NCBI RefSeq assembly: GCF_003002915.1
Contig: NZ_PVTG01000013.1
Location: 1-64,000, forward strand
Origin: Geodermatophilus tzadiensis
GTDB lineage: Bacteria; Actinomycetota; Actinomycetes; Mycobacteriales; Geodermatophilaceae
Direction: 5' to 3'
Length of the DNA stretch: 64,000 bases
Shown: one piece after another, positions 39,523 through 55,484 of the stretch
Position numbering within the stretch: the stretch's first letter is position 1
Layout of the letters: each line of letters begins with the position of its first letter
Position numbers and translations under genes: made by a program
The notes under the pieces: generated by a model
Database searches by the model: none
Told to the model about the DNA's origin: nothing
What the model saw: the letters and a program-made list of their open reading frames with translations, nothing else

Positions 39523-41700
39523 TCACAGCAGCGCGAGCTGCCCGGGGACGGCCTCCTCCCGCGCCGCCCGCGTGCGGCTCCGCCGCGCCGCGGGCGCGGT
39601 GGTCCGGCCGGCCGGCGGGAGGCTGCCGGCGGGGAACGCCGCCTCGTCGTCACCGGGGACGCCGGAGGCCGCCGCGCCGTCGACCCCGCGCGCTCCGCCG
39701 CTCCCCTGTCCGGCGAGCCCGTGCCGGCGCAGCAGCGGGGCGACCCGCGCGGCCAGCCACGACCGGTACTCCACCGTCACGTAGGCCCCGCCGCGGTAGA
39801 GCTGCCGATAGCGGCCCACCAGAGCGGGGTGCTCGCGGGCCAACCAGGCGGAGAACCACTCCCGCGCGCCGGGCCGCAGGTGCAGCGGGACGACGGTGAC
39901 ACCGGTCGCGCCCGCGGCCGCGATCGCCTCCAGCGCGGCGTCGAGGTCAGCCAGCCGGTCGGTGAGGCCGGGCAGCACCGGGGCGAGGAAGACGCCGCAC
40001 GGCAGGCCGGCGTCGGTCACGGCGCGGACCAGGTCCAGCCGGGCCCGCGGCGAGGGGACCCCGGGCTCGAGGCCGGCGTGCAGCTCCTCGTCCCAGATCG
40101 CCAGGGAGACGCCGAAACCGACCGGCACGTCCCGCGCCGCCGCGGCGAGCAGCGGGACGTCCCGCCGGGCCAGCGTGCCCTTGGTGAGGACGGAGAACGG
40201 CGTCCCGGAGTCGGCCAGCGCGCGGATGACACCGGGCATCAGGCGGTAGCGGCCCTCGGCCCGCTGGTAGGGGTCGGTGTTGGTGCCCAGCGCCACGTGC
40301 TCGCGCCGCCAGGAGGGCCTGGCCAGCTCGCGGCGCAGCACCTCGACGAGGTTGGTCTTGACCACGATCTGGGTGTCGAAGTCCCGCCCGGCGTCCAGGT
40401 CGAGGTACTCGTGCGTCGACCGGGCGAAGCAGTTGTGGCTGATCACGCCGTTCGCGACGAAGTCGCCGGTGCCGGTGGTGATGTCGAACATCGGCACCTC
40501 GACGCCCAGGTCCCGCACCTCCACGACGCGGAGGTCGGCGTCACTCTTCACCGCGACGCCGTCGATGCTGCACTTGCGCCGGATGGCCGGGTCGACGAGG
40601 TGGATGAAGCGCAGGTGCTCGCGCAGCCCTCCGCGCACCCGGACGGAGGCCAGGCCGTTGGCCAGCCGACGGTCCTCGAGGACGGCGTCGAAGCCGAAGG
40701 CCGCCAGCGCCGCCCGGGTGCGGTCGAGGATCTCGGTGTCGGTGTTGCTGATCCGCAGCGCGTGGGCGCTCCGCCCGCCCTCGGCGTCGAAGATCCCGGC
40801 GAGGAACCCCCGCTGCCAGGCCGCACTCACGACGTCGGGCCACGCGACGAGGTCACCGATCCGGGCGACGGCTGCCGCGGACGACGTGCGGATGGCGGTC
40901 ATGCCACGCCGGGTGTCGGTGGCGGCCGAGAAGGCGAACCGGTCGGTGTGCACCCCGGCCTCGCTCAAGTAGGCCTGCGTACGGTCCAGCCCCTCCACGT
41001 CGGCCAGCGCCAGCCGGAAGCGGTACTGGTCACCGTGCCGGCGGCCGGGGCGCTCGTACCGGTAGACGCCGAGGTGCCCGTCCCCGCGCACCATCCCGGT
41101 GAGATAGCCCCGTCGGTAGTCCGCGCACACCCTCGACGCGGCTCCGGAGGACCCGAACCCCAGCAACTCGTCGTTGGTCGTCAGGTGCGGTCGGCGGGCC
41201 CGCCCCGACGTCGTCCCCCGTACGTACTTCCAGCCCCGCGCACTGAGGAAGCGGTGGTCACCGCTCGCGACGAGCTCCGTGCCGTCGGCCAGCACCACCC
41301 GATGAGCCGGCTTCACGGTGCCCCAGTGCGCGAGGACCTCGGTCTCGACGTAGTGCCGGTAGGTGCCGCGTCGCTCCGTCCCGACGATGCGGTCGCCCAC
41401 GCGCAGGTCAGCGATGGGCCGCTGGCGGCCGTCGGCCATGAGGACGAGGGTGTCCCCGGCGAGGCAGTACACGCACTGGTGGAGGCAGCCCCGGTAGGGG
41501 TTGATCGTGTAGGAGAACGGCACCCGGGAACCGTCCGGCACCTTGTTCAGCGCCGAGCGGGCCAGCACCTCGTGCAGCGTCACACCGGGGAACTCGGACA
41601 CCTCGACGCTGCGCAGCAGGCCACGAGCACTCGGCATGCCGGGCAGCAGCGTCCCGTCCCCGTCGTCGAGCCGCTGACCGTCCCACCGCACGGCGCCCAT
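39523..41700 (-). CDS. Rv2578c-family radical SAM protein with intein
   Basis: The 725-residue precursor yields a ~380-residue radical SAM enzyme after splicing. The iron-sulfur motif is interrupted: GCLHQCVY is followed by the intein (residues 79-423) and then CFARSTHEYL, so the ligated motif is C-x3-C-x2-C with the third Cys being the first extein residue. Host enzymes of this family (NCBI 'Rv2578c family radical SAM protein') are near spore-photoproduct-lyase-like proteins, with unclear substrate. ATG 41700 is preceded at once by a near-perfect LexA box (41701-41716), so DNA damage induction is expected. Confidence 0.9.
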   Translation of the reverse strand: MGAVRWDGQRLDDGDGTLLPGMPSARGLLRSVEVSEFPGVTLHEVLARSALNKVPDGSRVPFSYTINPYRGCLHQCVYCLAGDTLVLMADGRQRPIADLRVGDRIVGTERRGTYRHYVETEVLAHWGTVKPAHRVVLADGTELVASGDHRFLSARGWKYVRGTTSGRARRPHLTTNDELLGFGSSGAASRVCADYRRGYLTGMVRGDGHLGVYRYERPGRRHGDQYRFRLALADVEGLDRTQAYLSEAGVHTDRFAFSAATDTRRGMTAIRTSSAAAVARIGDLVAWPDVVSAAWQRGFLAGIFDAEGGRSAHALRISNTDTEILDRTRAALAAFGFDAVLEDRRLANGLASVRVRGGLREHLRFIHLVDPAIRRKCSIDGVAVKSDADLRVVEVRDLGVEVPMFDITTGTGDFVANGVISHNCFARSTHEYLDLDAGRDFDTQIVVKTNLVEVLRRELARPSWRREHVALGTNTDPYQRAEGRYRLMPGVIRALADSGTPFSVLTKGTLARRDVPLLAAAARDVPVGFGVSLAIWDEELHAGLEPGVPSPRARLDLVRAVTDAGLPCGVFLAPVLPGLTDRLADLDAALEAIAAAGATGVTVVPLHLRPGAREWFSAWLAREHPALVGRYRQLYRGGAYVTVEYRSWLAARVAPLLRRHGLAGQGSGGARGVDGAAASGVPGDDEAAFPAGSLPPAGRTTAPAARRSRTRAAREEAVPGQLALL
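40432..41466 (-). mobile_element. LAGLIDADG-type homing intein
   Basis: The 345-residue insert starts with Cys (CLAGDTLVLMADG, block A), has block B GTELVASGDHRFLS, two dodecapeptide motifs (LTGMVRGDG near residue 122 and LAGIFDAEG near 222), and ends VPMFDITTGTGDFVANG with VISHN followed by extein Cys. Both splicing junctions look intact. The two endonuclease motifs keep their acidic residues, so homing could still be active. Confidence 0.9.
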
Positions 41701-41716
41701 GCGAACACACGTTCGA
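41701..41716 (-). promoter_or_regulatory. LexA (SOS) box of the radical SAM gene
   Basis: On the minus strand the sequence reads TCGAAC-GTGT-GTTCGC, matching the actinobacterial SOS consensus TCGAAC-N4-GTTCGA except for the last base. It is immediately upstream of ATG 41700, where LexA would block transcription directly. Confidence 0.65.
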
Positions 41717-41785
41717 CTCCCTGTCCAGGCGTCCCCTCCGTGTCGCGGCTTCTCTCCCAAGGAGTCCTGGTGGTTGTAGGACTTA

Positions 41786-41912: not shown

Positions 41913-42389
41913 TCAGAGCGGCGGGCGGTCCTCGTAGAAGGTCGAGAGGACGACGGTCGTGCGGGTGTTGACGTTCGCCGTCGCCCGGATCTCCCGCAGC
42001 AGCGCCTCCAGGGCCTCCGGCGAGGCCACCCGCACCTTGAGCAGGTAGCTCTCCACCCCGGCCACCGAGTGGCAGGCCTCGATCGCGTCGAGGTGGGCGA
42101 GCTTGGCCGGGGCGTCGTCGGCCTCGGCCAGGTCCAGCGGGGTGATCGAGACGAACGCCGTCATGCCCAGGCCGAGCTTGCGGGCGTCGACGCTGGCCCG
42201 GTACCCGGTGATCAGCCCCCGCTGCTCGAGGCGCCGCACCCGCTGGTGCACCGCCGACACCGACAGGCCCACCCGCTCGGCGAGGTCGGTGTAGCTGGCC
42301 CGGCCGTCGCGGGCCAGGGCGGCCAGCAGCGCCCGGTCGACGTCGAGGGCGGCGGCCCCGGGCTCAGCCGGGGAGGACGACGAGCTCAC
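41913..42389 (-). CDS. Lrp/AsnC family transcriptional regulator
   Basis: The 158-residue protein has a winged helix (LDVDRALLAALARDGRASYTDLAERVGLSVSAVHQRVRRLEQRGLI is its span) and an RAM effector domain (GYRASVDARKLGLGMTAFVSI to LSTFYEDRPPL). Such regulators sense an amino acid and control its metabolism. GTG 42389 overlaps the end of the M24 peptidase gene by 26 bases, so the two are probably co-expressed and the effector may be a peptidase product. Both are on the minus strand. Confidence 0.92.
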   Translation of the reverse strand: MSSSSSPAEPGAAALDVDRALLAALARDGRASYTDLAERVGLSVSAVHQRVRRLEQRGLITGYRASVDARKLGLGMTAFVSITPLDLAEADDAPAKLAHLDAIEACHSVAGVESYLLKVRVASPEALEALLREIRATANVNTRTTVVLSTFYEDRPPL

Positions 42390-50885: not shown

Positions 50886-51863
50886 CTAGGCCCCGGGCTG
50901 CTCGCCGTAGCGCGTCAGGGCGGCCCGGGCGTCGGCGGCCACGGCCCCGGCGAGCTCGGCGGGCTCCTCCACCGTGGCCGCCCCGCCGAGGGAGGCGACC
51001 AGCCGGCGCGCCCACGCCAGGTCCCCGGTGCGCAGCGCCACGGCCAGGCCGCCGGGCGGGTCGTCGACCTCGCGCACGTCCTCGACCGGGTAGTACTCGG
51101 CCACCCAGCGGGCGGTGCGGGCCAGCCGCAGCCGCACCACCGGGGCACCGGGCTCGGGCTGGTAGATCCCGTTGTCCAGGTCGCGCAGGTGCACCCCCGG
51201 CGGCGGTGCGGCGGGCTCGTCGAGGACCTCGACGTCGTCGACCCGGTCCAGCCGGAACAGCCGCAGCCCCTCGGCGCGGCGGCACCACGCCTCCAGGTAG
51301 GAGCGGCCGTCGACCAGCAGCAGCCGCAGCGGGTCGACGGTGCGCTCGGTGCGCTCGTCGCGGGTGGGCACGTAGTAGTGCAGGTGCAGCGCCCGGCCCT
51401 GCTCCAGCCCGCGGCGGACGACGGCGAGGGACTGCTCCCGCGCGTCCACCGACAGCGCCACCGGGGTGACCCGCTCGGCGGCGTGCCCGGCCGCGGCCGA
51501 CACCTTGGCCAGCGCGCGGCTGACCGCCTCCTGCTCGGCCAGCCCGGGCAGCTCCAGCAGCGTGCGCAGGGCCACGACCAGCGCCACCGCCTCGTCGGTG
51601 GTCAGCCGCAGCGGGCGGACCATGCCGGCGGTGAAGGTGACCCGCACCCGGTCGCCCTCGAAGGCGAGGTCGATGAGGTCGCCGGGCCCGTAGCCGGGCA
51701 GCCCGCACATCCACAGCAGGTCCAGGTCGCGGCGCAGCTGCCGCTCGGGGACGCCGAAGTCGCGGGCGGCCTCGGCCAGCGGCACGCCCTCGGGCCGGGC
51801 GGTGAGGTAGGGGACCAGGGACAGCAGCCGGGTCATCCGCTCGTTGGTGGCCGGGCTCGTCAC
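50886..51863 (-). CDS. pafC: PafC-type WYL-domain regulator
   Basis: The 325-residue protein has an N-terminal winged helix ([41 protein letters not shown] is the region) and a WYL domain ([34 protein letters not shown]) plus the WCX extension. PafB and PafC form a heterodimer that activates DNA damage genes independently of LexA in mycobacteria, probably sensing single-stranded DNA or similar. The GTG overlaps the pafB stop (GTGA). It corresponds to Rv2095c. Confidence 0.9.
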
Positions 51864-52837
51864 GACCGCTCCCCCATCGCCGCCAGGCGGGTGAGCCGCT
51901 CGACGACGGCCGCGCGCACCGCCTGCGGCGACTCCACCACGACGTCGGGCCCGTAGGCGGCCAGCTGGTCGGCCAGCCGCCACGGCTCGGTGGTGCGCAG
52001 CTGCAGCCGGTCGTCGCCGTCGGGGCCGGCGCCCAGCGGGGTGGCCCAGCGGCGCAGGCCCACGGCGGCGCCCGGGCGGGCGCGGACCACGACCAGGTGC
52101 TCCTCGCCGCCGGCCTGCCGGGCGACCAGCGCCGACAGGTCGACGTCGGCCGGCGGCTCGAACGCGCCCTCCGGCCCGGTGGCCCGCGGGGTGCCGACGA
52201 CGCGGGAGAGCCGGAACACCCGCGGCGCCTGCCGGTCGAGGTCGAGGCCCACCAGGTACCAGCGGCCGTGCCAGGCAACCACGCCCCACGGCTGCACCCG
52301 CCGCCGGGCGGGGGCGTCCTCGTCGGGACGGCGGTAGTCGAAGGTCAGCACCCGGCGGTCGCGGGCCGCGGTGTAACAGGGCTCGAAGGCCGGCTCGTCG
52401 GAGTCCAGCCGCGGCTGCACCGGCAGCGACCGGGCCGGGTCGACGTCCACCCCGGCGGCGCGCAGCTTGACCAGCGCGCTCTGCGCCGCCCCGGCCAGCT
52501 GCGCCGACTCCCACAGCCGCAGCGCCAGGCCGACGGCGGCGGCCTCCTCGCCCGTGAGCGTGATCTCGGGCAGCTCGTAGTCGGCGCGGGCGATGCGGTA
52601 GCCGTCCTCGGTGTCGAAGACGCTGGTGCGGCCGGTCTCCAGCGGCACGCCCATCTCGCGCAGCTCGGCCTTGTCCCGCTCGAACATCCGCTTGAACGCC
52701 TCGTCGGCGCGGGCGGTGCCGTCGTCGGGCTCGTAGCCGGGCACGGTGGCGCGGATCCGCGCCGCGGTCACGTACTGCCGGGTGCCCAGCAGGGCGATGA
52801 CCAGGTTGACCAGTCGCTCCGCCCGCTTCGCCGACAC
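51860..52837 (-). CDS. pafB: PafB-type WYL-domain regulator
   Basis: The 325-residue protein has an N-terminal helix-turn-helix ([30 protein letters not shown]), a [17 protein letters not shown] segment and a WYL domain ([36 protein letters not shown]). It is the partner of PafC and corresponds to Rv2096c. TAGGCT (minus strand 52850-52845) lies seven bases before GTG 52837, and repeat D begins seven bases beyond that box. So the promoter of the pafBC operon abuts a covarying hairpin. It precedes PafA by two genes in mycobacteria; here a convergent DUF3866 gene intervenes. Confidence 0.92.
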
Positions 52838-52848
52838 GCACCCCAGCC

Positions 52849-52912
52849 TAGACACAGGGCCCCCTGCCCCCAGCTCCTCGCGGGCTCGCCGCGGGCCCCC
52901 GCAGGGGGCCAC
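52849..52912 (+). repeat. Covarying palindromic element, copy D
   Basis: Arms GGCCCCCTGC (52858-52867) and GCAGGGGGCC (52901-52910), interior CTCCTCGCGGGCTCGCCGCGG. It lies between the divergent pafB and DUF3866 genes, adjacent to the -10 box of pafB (seven bases). Confidence 0.8.
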
Positions 52913-52951
52913 GGGGGCGCCGGGGGCACCGGGGTCCCTACGCTCGCCCCC

Positions 52952-54058
52952 GTGGGGGAACCGACGACGACGCACCGGATCCGCTGGCGACGCGGGCGGG
53001 TGACCGCGACCGGCCGCAGCTGGCGCGACGCCCTCGAGCTCACCGTCGAGGTGCCCGGCGACGGCGAGGTCCGGTCGCTGGCGCACCCCTCGCTCGTCGG
53101 CGTCCCCGAGGTCGGCGACGAGGTGCTGCTCAACACCACCGCCTGGGCGCAGCGGCTGGGCACCGGCGGGTACGCCCTCGTCGTCGCCGTCCCCGACCGT
53201 TTGCCGCCCGACCCCACCGGCCCCGGCCACCTGGTCAAGGCCCGCTACACCCCGATGCAGGTCAGCGTGCAGGGCGTCGACGAGCAGGACACCGAGCACC
53301 ACGCGGCGATCGCCGAGGCCGACGACCTCGGCGGCATGCCGGTCGTCGTCGCCGACCTGCACTCGGCGCTGCCGGCGGTGCTCATCGGCGTGCTGGCCAC
53401 CGACCCCGACCTCAAGGTCGCCTACGTGATGACCGACGGCGGGGCGCTGGTCGCCGGGTTCTCCCGGACGCTGCACACGCTGGCGCCGTCGCTGGCCGGC
53501 GTGGTCACCGTGGGCCAGGCCTTCGGCGGCGACCTGGAGGCGGTCACCCTGCACAGCGGGCTGCTCGCCGCCCGGCACGTGCTCGGCGCCGACGTCGCGA
53601 TCGTCACCCAGGGCCCGGGCAACCTGGGCACCGGGACGCCGTGGGGCTTCTCCGGGGTGGCCGCCGGCGAGGCGTGCAACGCCGTCTCGGTGCTGGGCGG
53701 GGAGCCGATCGGCGCGCTGCGCATCTCCGACGCCGACCCCCGCCCGCGCCACCGCGGCGTGTCCCACCACTCGCTGACCGCCTTCGGCCGGGTCGCGCTG
53801 GCCGGGGTGACGCTGGTGGCGCCGCGCGGGCTGGGCTCGGAGCTGGGCAGCCAGGTCGACGAGGACCTCGCCTCCCAGCCCGAGCGCAACGAGGTCGTGT
53901 GGGTGGACACGGAGAACCTCGACGAGGCGCTGCAGCTGTCCCCGGTGACGCTGTCGACCATGGGCCGCGGCTGGCCGGAGGAGCGCGCCTACTTCCTGGC
54001 TGCCGCGGCCGCCGGCCGCTACGCCGCCGTGCAGGTGCCGCTGCCCGACGACGCCTGA
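52952..54058 (+). CDS. DUF3866 family protein
   Basis: The 368-residue protein matches an actinobacterial family of unknown function: RWRRGRVTATGRSWRDALELTVEV, LVKARYTPMQVSVQGVDEQDTEHHAAIAEADDL, VAYVMTDGGALVAGFSRT and VTQGPGNLGTGTPWGFSGVAAGEA. The glycine-rich TQGPGNLGTGTPWGFSG may be a nucleotide or phosphate-binding loop, but no activity is known. TACGCT (52939-52944) lies seven bases before GTG 52952. It is the only plus-strand gene in the proteasome region and is convergent with pafA across tandem palindromes. Confidence 0.85.
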   Translation: MGEPTTTHRIRWRRGRVTATGRSWRDALELTVEVPGDGEVRSLAHPSLVGVPEVGDEVLLNTTAWAQRLGTGGYALVVAVPDRLPPDPTGPGHLVKARYTPMQVSVQGVDEQDTEHHAAIAEADDLGGMPVVVADLHSALPAVLIGVLATDPDLKVAYVMTDGGALVAGFSRTLHTLAPSLAGVVTVGQAFGGDLEAVTLHSGLLAARHVLGADVAIVTQGPGNLGTGTPWGFSGVAAGEACNAVSVLGGEPIGALRISDADPRPRHRGVSHHSLTAFGRVALAGVTLVAPRGLGSELGSQVDEDLASQPERNEVVWVDTENLDEALQLSPVTLSTMGRGWPEERAYFLAAAAAGRYAAVQVPLPDDA

Positions 54059-54059
54059 C

Positions 54060-54120
54060 CGCGCAGATCCGCGGACCTGCACCGCGCAGATCCGCGGATC
54101 TGCACGAGCAGATCCGCGGA
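54060..54120. repeat. Tandem palindromic repeats between DUF3866 and pafA
   Basis: Two 23-base units CGCGCAGATCCGCGGAYCTG (54060-54082, 54083-54105) and a partial third (54106-54120). Unit 2 contains the perfect 18-base palindrome GCAGATCCGCGGATCTGC. It probably acts as a bidirectional terminator between convergent genes. Confidence 0.75.
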
Positions 54121-54125
54121 GGCGG

Positions 54126-55484
54126 TCACATCGAGGCGATGAGCTTCTCCACGCGCTCGTCGACGCTCTTGAACGGGTCCTTGCACAGCACGGTGCGCTG
54201 GGCCTGGTCGTTGAGCTTGAGGTGCACCCAGTCGACGGTGAAGTCGCGCCGCTTCTCCTGGGCCTTGCGGATGAACTCCCCACGCAGCTTCGCCCGGGTG
54301 GTCTGCGGCGGCACGTTCTTGGCCTCGAACACCCGCGGCTCGTGCGCCACCCGCTCCACCTGGCCGCGCCGCTCCAGCAGGTAGTACAGCCCCCGCCGGC
54401 GGCTGATGTCGTGGTAGGCGAGGTCCATCTGCGCCACCCGCGGCGAGGACAGCGACAGGTCGTGCTTGGCCCGGTAGCGCTCGATGAGCGAGAGCTTGGT
54501 GGCCCAGTCGATCTCCCGGTCGATGAGCGAGAGGTCGCCGGAGTCGACGGCCTTGAGCACCCGCCCCCACAGCTCGAGCATCTGCCGGTGCACCGGGCCG
54601 AAGCCCTCGCGGTCGACGAACTCCGCGGCCCGGGCGTGGTACTCGGCCTGGATCTCCAGCGCCGACATCTCCTTGCCGTTGGCCAGGCGCACCTTGCGGC
54701 GGCCGGTGATGTCGTGGCTGATCTCGCGGATGGCGCGGATCGGGTTCTCCAGCGCCATGTCCCGGATCGGCACCCCGGCCTCGATCATCCGCAGCACCAG
54801 GTCGGTGACGGTGACCTTGAGCAGCGTCGTCGTCTCGTTCATGTTCGAGTCGCCGACGATGACGTGCAGCCGCCGGTAGCGCTCGGCGTCGGCGTGCGGC
54901 TCGTCGCGGGTGTTGATGATCGGCCGGGAGCGGGTGGTCGCCGAGGAGACGCCCTCCCAGATGTGCTCGGCGCGCTGGCTGACGCAGTAGATCGCCCCGC
55001 GCGGGGTCTGCAGCACCTTCCCGGCGCCGACCACCAGCTGCCGGCTCACCAGGAACGGGATGAGCACGTCGGCCAGCCGGCTGAACTCCCCGTGCCGGCC
55101 GACGCAGTAGTTCTCGTGGCAGCCGTAGCTGTTGCCCGCCGAGTCGGTGTTGTTCTTGAACAGGTAGATGTCGCCGGTGACACCCTCCTCGGCCAGCCGC
55201 TGCTCGGCGTCGACCAGCAGGCCCTCGAGGATCCGCTCACCGGCCTTGTCGTGGACGACCAGTTCGGTGAGGTCGTCGCACTCGGCGGTGGCGTACTCGG
55301 GGTGGCTGCCGACGTCGAGGTAGAGCCGCGAGCCGTTGCGCAGGAACACGTTGGAGCTGCGCCCCCACGACACGACGCGCCGGAACAGGTAGCGCGCGAC
55401 CTCGTCCGGGGACAGCCGCCGCTGCCCGCGGAAGGTGCACGTGACGCCGTACTCGGTCTCGATCCCGAAGATCCGTCGGTCCAC
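54126..55484 (-). CDS. pafA: Pup ligase PafA
   Basis: The 452-residue enzyme forms an isopeptide bond between the C-terminal Glu of Pup and lysines of target proteins. It begins [18 protein letters not shown] with the carboxylate-amine ligase fold, and retains the metal and ATP-site residues ([28 protein letters not shown]). It corresponds to Rv2097c. TAGGCT (minus strand 55496-55491) lies six bases before GTG 55484: a leaderless single-gene start. Upstream is a 56-base gap to prcA. Confidence 0.96.

Follow-up and report, generated by a model that had tools for sequence, protein, structure and literature searches.

A predicted LexA operator in the core promoter of an intein-containing Rv2578c-family radical SAM gene of Geodermatophilus tzadiensis

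The window, by which we mean the whole stretch of DNA analysed (64,000 nt of Geodermatophilus tzadiensis contig NZ_PVTG01000013.1, positions 1 to 64,000), carries a predicted LexA operator (SOS box) upstream of an intein-containing radical SAM gene of the Rv2578c family. Among the Actinomycetota relatives that were examined, most have retained a box at this position; this suggests that the gene is induced by damage and probably serves in DNA repair. We consider it very probable that the box is a LexA operator lying within the core promoter, and that the gene encodes a damage-induced radical SAM enzyme which probably acts on a DNA lesion. Since the gene appears to be SOS-controlled and the nearest fold of its product is that of spore photoproduct lyase (SPL), it would belong to the SOS response, and the enzyme probably acts on damaged DNA in a repair role.

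The LexA box, its conservation and its neighbourhood

The operator is predicted from its match to the consensus, from its identity with the recA box and from its conservation in orthologues. The box TCGAACGTGTGTTCGC (41701..41716, minus strand) differs from the consensus TCGAACNNNNGTTCGA by one mismatch, at the last base, just as the first-pass annotation had read it; no other site in the window comes within one mismatch. Sites with up to two mismatches number 10 in the window (shuffles average 1.15) and 403 in the genome (4.87 Mb scanned, 36 contigs), where the reversed control pattern gives 196; 33 genome sites (7 + 26, counted among the matches listed) have zero or one mismatch. Among the genome matches listed, the exact 16-mer has a single second copy, at C8:158104-158119, where it precedes recA (domain at C8:157165-157950, minus strand); that is, the box of the Rv2578c-type gene is letter-identical to the recA box of the same genome. 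The lexA gene is also present (DNA-binding domain from C8:142101) and has three boxes upstream (C8:141696, 141712 and 141777). As both lexA and recA carry boxes of the TCGAAC-N4-GTTCGA type, a LexA system that uses this dialect is present. Further LexA-like boxes lie near other genes of the same genome (loci L007, L012 and L013, locus position 1501): elsewhere in it, such boxes were seen 45 nt upstream of a dnaB helicase gene, 15 nt upstream of a Y-family polymerase gene and at the start of a DUF222 gene.

Conservation was analysed in three sets of upstream DNA. The own-family set comprised 48 loci plus the window, from 52 genomes with a match (the search leaves out G041, which has only a weak match, and fragments in G008 and G031). 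The phylum set comprised 90 places picked by score and length from 174 genomes with a match, including the window itself and two places from one genome (G323); its counts refer to 88 loci, as L107 and L110 have too little upstream DNA. The named GTDB set comprised the best 80 of at least 594 loci. L232, a partial gene, allowed no judgement. Orthologues were defined as the 176 loci whose match begins at profile position 1 or 2. In 151 of these 176 a box with up to three mismatches begins 19-30 nt before the conserved start codon, whereas at five other offsets, used as controls, 7 of 876 placements have one; the conservation upstream of orthologues that had been proposed as a check on the box is thus borne out. 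The exact core GAAC-N4-GTTC is present between -150 and +60 in 48/48 own-family, 72/88 phylum and 47/80 named loci (best 80 of at least 594), and in background windows of the same loci in 0/630, 3/830 and 13/2957 cases, respectively. A 16-mer with at most one mismatch to the consensus was found in 48/48, 47/88 and 60/80 loci (the last again the best 80 of at least 594).

Of the 25 orthologues without the canonically placed box, 24 have the exact core elsewhere between -150 and +60, L104 alone having none in that interval; seven of the 16 phylum loci without the exact core carry a degenerate box (one to three mismatches) at the canonical place. No box was found in three phylum orthologues (L104, L124 and L126) nor in six low-scoring homologues (L148-L153), three of which were scored against the family models: L150 and L151 lie over the cut-off of the PA0069 family discussed below, and L153 lies under both cut-offs.

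When the exact core was sought in the 400 nt before the domain match, it preceded the Rv2578c-type gene in 72/87 loci, recA in 17/30 and the control radical SAM gene lipA (lipoyl synthase) in 0/29 (L296, with 48 nt upstream only, excluded from 30), in genome sets that differ from one another, the recA set taking in lineages without the Rv2578c gene. In this sense LexA boxes accompany the Rv2578c-type gene with great consistency in Actinomycetota, which makes its enzyme a well-founded candidate for assays on damaged DNA. Position, identity with the recA box and orthologue conservation together lend strong support to the LexA control of the radical SAM gene proposed by the first-pass annotation, and placement of the gene under SOS control is a well-supported prediction.

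A chance match, or a box belonging to a neighbouring gene, is extremely improbable. The consensus is short, and some of the 33 genome sites with zero or one mismatch lie inside ORFs, as chance would allow; against this, the conservation is specific to position (151/176 versus 7/876), and a chance match was rejected on this ground. The next gene upstream, an Lrp/AsnC-type regulator identified by profile search (41913..42389, minus strand), lies on the same strand and is not part of the system. No gene neighbour within about 4 kb is common to more than 14 of the 80 named loci (best 80 of at least 594), and the box of a neighbour was likewise rejected; the top neighbour clusters as listed for the named loci are clade-bound. 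As for the PafBC damage regulators that had been noted in this genome, the window encodes a WYL/WCX protein of PafBC type (51860-54283), which may represent pafB, pafC or both; tatA, tatC and the gene of a HelY-like helicase lie in its vicinity.

Promoter anatomy and start codon

Three elements precede the gene on the minus strand: a predicted -35 element TGGACA (41722..41727), aligned with TTGACA-like hexamers that lie within two mismatches in 131 orthologues; 17 bp downstream, a predicted -10 element TCGCAT (41699..41704), which overlaps the 3' end of the box; and, after 7 nt, GTG (41691-41689). The box occupies most of the -35/-10 spacer plus part of the -10, a position that would block the core promoter, itself predicted from sequence. 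The same arrangement recurs among the 151 boxed loci: a TTGACA-like hexamer stands 5 nt before the box in 126, the box overlaps a TCGAAT-like hexamer, 117 of the 131 loci with a -35 within two mismatches have a 17-bp -35/-10 spacing, and the end of the box lies 7-10 nt from the start codon in 145/151. The orthologue promoters thereby form a set sharing one fixed LexA geometry.

The box had been described as abutting the ATG of the gene. ATG 41700-41698 (41698..41700, minus strand) does directly follow the box, but it overlaps the -10 hexamer TCGCAT and is probably not the start codon. The conserved start lies nine bases beyond it, here GTG 41691, and a start codon is kept there in 49/49 own-family rows (ATG in 38, GTG in 11). 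The real start is most likely this GTG, which corrects the start codon by three residues. The alternative that ATG 41700 is the true start, with the box abutting it and LexA blocking the first transcribed bases, is improbable. This ATG is in frame, and an ATG occupies the equivalent place in 13/49 own-family rows; however, it is missing in 36/49, the -35 and -10 elements at 17 bp surround the box, and a ribosome-binding site cannot fit between the -10 and ATG 41700.

With GTG 41691 as the start, the codon stands so near the -10 element that the mRNA of the gene is probably leaderless, beginning at about that position. The leaderless form is not universal, as the Streptomyces-like loci (genus g19) have a GGGAAC-N4-GTTCTA box whose usual position is about -46, and downstream of it a leader that contains a GAGGAGG-like site. 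A separate observation in these loci (L046-L055 and L059) is that, about 40-75 nt upstream of the start, a near-constant CGCACGATCA precedes the GGGAAC-N4-GTTCTA box, in a promoter layout unlike the leaderless one.

We propose the following sequence of events. In the undamaged cell a LexA dimer would occupy the operator, which fills most of the spacer between TGGACA and TCGCAT and overlaps the -10, and would exclude RNA polymerase. RecA assembled on single-stranded DNA would lead to self-cleavage of LexA and the promoter would open, after which the mRNA would be made from about GTG 41691. The translated product would have to splice out its intein before the [4Fe-4S] motif is complete, and the spliced enzyme would then probably work on damaged DNA through SAM-radical chemistry.

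The Rv2578c-family gene and its intein

The gene (39523..41691, minus strand) scores over the cut-offs of both models of its family: NF038136, the intein-containing Rv2578c family (847 bits, cut-off 700), and NF038135, the Rv2578c family (509.2 bits, cut-off 430). A LexA box lies upstream in nearly all the family members examined. Compared with other own-family members the gene has no distinguishing trait; the -35 TGGACA and the GTG start are found in others too. Carriage by phages was considered and rejected, as the three matches in phage records are under 30% identity.

The predicted intein (40432..41466, minus strand) comprises 345 residues and interrupts the CxxxCxxC motif immediately ahead of its third cysteine. 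Its assignment is based on sequence features (Cys1, the block B His, the terminal His-Asn, the following Cys and two LAGLIDADG motifs), which are those of a class 1 cis-splicing intein with a LAGLIDADG endonuclease, and on a match to PF14528 above its cut-off; matches to the general intein models PF14890 and TIGR01445 fell short of theirs. When the 48 own-family loci were classed by match length, 17 had a full intein, 8 a short one and 23 none (among the last, L092 and L093 are partial matches, so that L093 may in fact bear an intein, and L090 is without the motif). The box is present in all 48, alike in genes with and without an intein, and a link between intein and box was rejected.

The own-family loci (L016-L045 and L076-L093) also show one insertion site that is empty, filled by a full intein or filled by a shortened one within a single bacterial family, a collection useful for studies of intein gain, shrinkage and loss. 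In L090 (genome G051, of the genus of the window; gene from 1001) the SOS box is kept and the frame is otherwise open, with about 24 residues missing in frame, including the entire CxxxCxxC motif; this gap may have been left behind when an intein was lost, or may reflect faulty assembly. In L091 (G055, same genus) the gene is out of frame past the intein, and in G041 (same genus, 100% complete) only a weak, unrelated match was found. Since the gene is partly deleted, broken or undetected in these three genomes of the genus, it is not essential and seems to be dispensable there.

Fold, substrate and related SOS-controlled enzymes

For the fold analysis, the orthologue from Geodermatophilus dictyosporus (L154) was modelled with AlphaFold2 from an alignment of 30 sequences, at a mean pLDDT of 80.4, with the cluster loop 70-88 under 50. 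The best fold match of this model is SPL (Foldseek E 3.8e-7), and the VIA-align comparison gave Z 15.5, rmsd 3.8, 256 aligned residues and 14% identity for SPL, followed by lipoyl synthase (Z 14.0, rmsd 3.6, 215 aligned). In the sequence-profile search of the PDB, 9d01 (a-iTHR-201, E 8e-5) came ahead of a weak SPL match (E 0.007). The SPL family model TIGR04070 (cut-off 400) was not matched by the window protein at E 0.001, and relatives scored 19.7-29.5 bits where listed. The CxxxCxxC cluster motif is invariant in the family alignments (18/18 and 30/30), although in the window protein it would be complete only after splicing. Outside this motif, cysteine reaches 30% in a single column, residue 220 (14/18 and 21/30); between the motif and residue 220 these alignments (18 and 30 sequences) hold no conserved cysteine. 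In SPL, C140 (PDB numbering) is the hydrogen-donor cysteine; no conserved counterpart was found here, as judged by offset rather than by residue-level superposition.

The enzyme therefore resembles SPL (TIGR04070; PDB 4fhc, 4k9r and 4fhf) in its best-matching predicted fold and its CxxxCxxC motif, and differs from it in the low identity, the missed family model and the lack by offset of a conserved C140 counterpart; given the last two points, it is not a proven spore photoproduct lyase. The likeness to spore-photoproduct-lyase-like enzymes previously suggested stands for the fold, and not for the family model or a donor-type cysteine. The DNA-repair role, suggested at the same time, draws indirect support from the regulation and the nearest fold; the missed SPL model and the lack of an SPL-type cysteine speak against it. 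Taken alone, a DNA-lesion substrate is what we would expect, with modest confidence.

A less probable but substantial alternative is that the gene is SOS-controlled and its enzyme has no part in DNA repair, acting instead on RNA, on protein or on some metabolite of use while the cell is damaged, or being a passenger of the regulon. The unmatched SPL family model, the stretch without conserved cysteines up to residue 220, the closeness of lipoyl synthase to SPL in the fold comparison and the lack of a conserved neighbour are all in keeping with it, and a connection to repair is termed speculative by authors for whom a Streptomyces member served as the integration site of a phage (PMC12924846). 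Against such a non-repair enzyme, the best structural match is SPL, and the linkage to a LexA box recurs, with different box types, in the sister PA0069 family and in the reports cited below. We therefore retain an enzyme probably acting on damaged DNA as the preferred reading.

The PA0069 family (NF033668) is the sister family, and the window protein scores under its cut-off (199 bits, cut-off 360). LexA boxes lie upstream of PA0069-family genes in 9/13 loci, where, unlike that of the window, they are of proteobacterial type: the alpha-proteobacterial box GTTC-N7-GTTC was found in 8/10 alpha loci, some of them close relatives, with one further occurrence in 40,723 background positions (one strand), and an Aeromonas locus carries CTGTATATATAAACAG. 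None of the three LexA motifs was found at the other 4/13 loci (Methylobacterium and Pseudorhodobacter, both alpha; Legionella; Gemmatirosa). We take Pseudomonas aeruginosa PA0069 itself to be a LexA target.

Several published systems are comparable. In alpha- and beta-Proteobacteria splB is placed in the LexA regulon even though the boxes have diverged, such control not being seen in gamma-Proteobacteria in that study (PMC3323433); the gene also appears in the SOS networks of Bacteroidetes and as 'SOS regulated in several species' (PMC8565304). These splB genes (COG1533) share with the window gene the coupling of an SplB-like radical SAM gene to LexA, and differ from it in box types and phyla; the comparison is at the level of COG1533 as a whole rather than of its subfamilies. 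In Curtobacterium an SPL-family gene is induced by UV-C (PMC12029717). PMC8151990 mentions a RecA-dependent 'DNA repair photolyase' of Mycobacterium tuberculosis with no gene number, which we would guess to be Rv2578c. In Streptomyces venezuelae the radical SAM gene vnz_31145 is LexA-bound and induced 20-fold by mitomycin C (PMC9380542); it is likewise an actinomycete radical SAM gene with a LexA link, and is treated here as a candidate orthologue only. Its published box and position before an MRW start were found in 0/392 genomes of that genus, a sample that may not include the S. venezuelae genome.

Given the PA0069 boxes and the printed splB and LexA reports, SOS control of this group of enzymes is already known, and what is added here is the extent and geometry of LexA control for the Rv2578c family; no printed description of phylum-wide LexA control or of an intein in this family was found, in a literature search that reached mainly open-access papers. 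As a tentative and rather unlikely generalisation, Rv2578c/PA0069 might be a core SOS enzyme, LexA-controlled across phyla with differing boxes, whose reaction undoes some DNA lesion different from the spore photoproduct and needs neither light nor an SPL-type cysteine donor; in its intein-bearing members two gates would control activity, LexA acting on the promoter and splicing exactly at the third cysteine of the cluster motif. Two PA0069-family genes were also observed on plasmids: one near a DNA polymerase III alpha gene in Sphingomonas (L236), the other beside a PolX gene in Legionella adelaidensis (L246).
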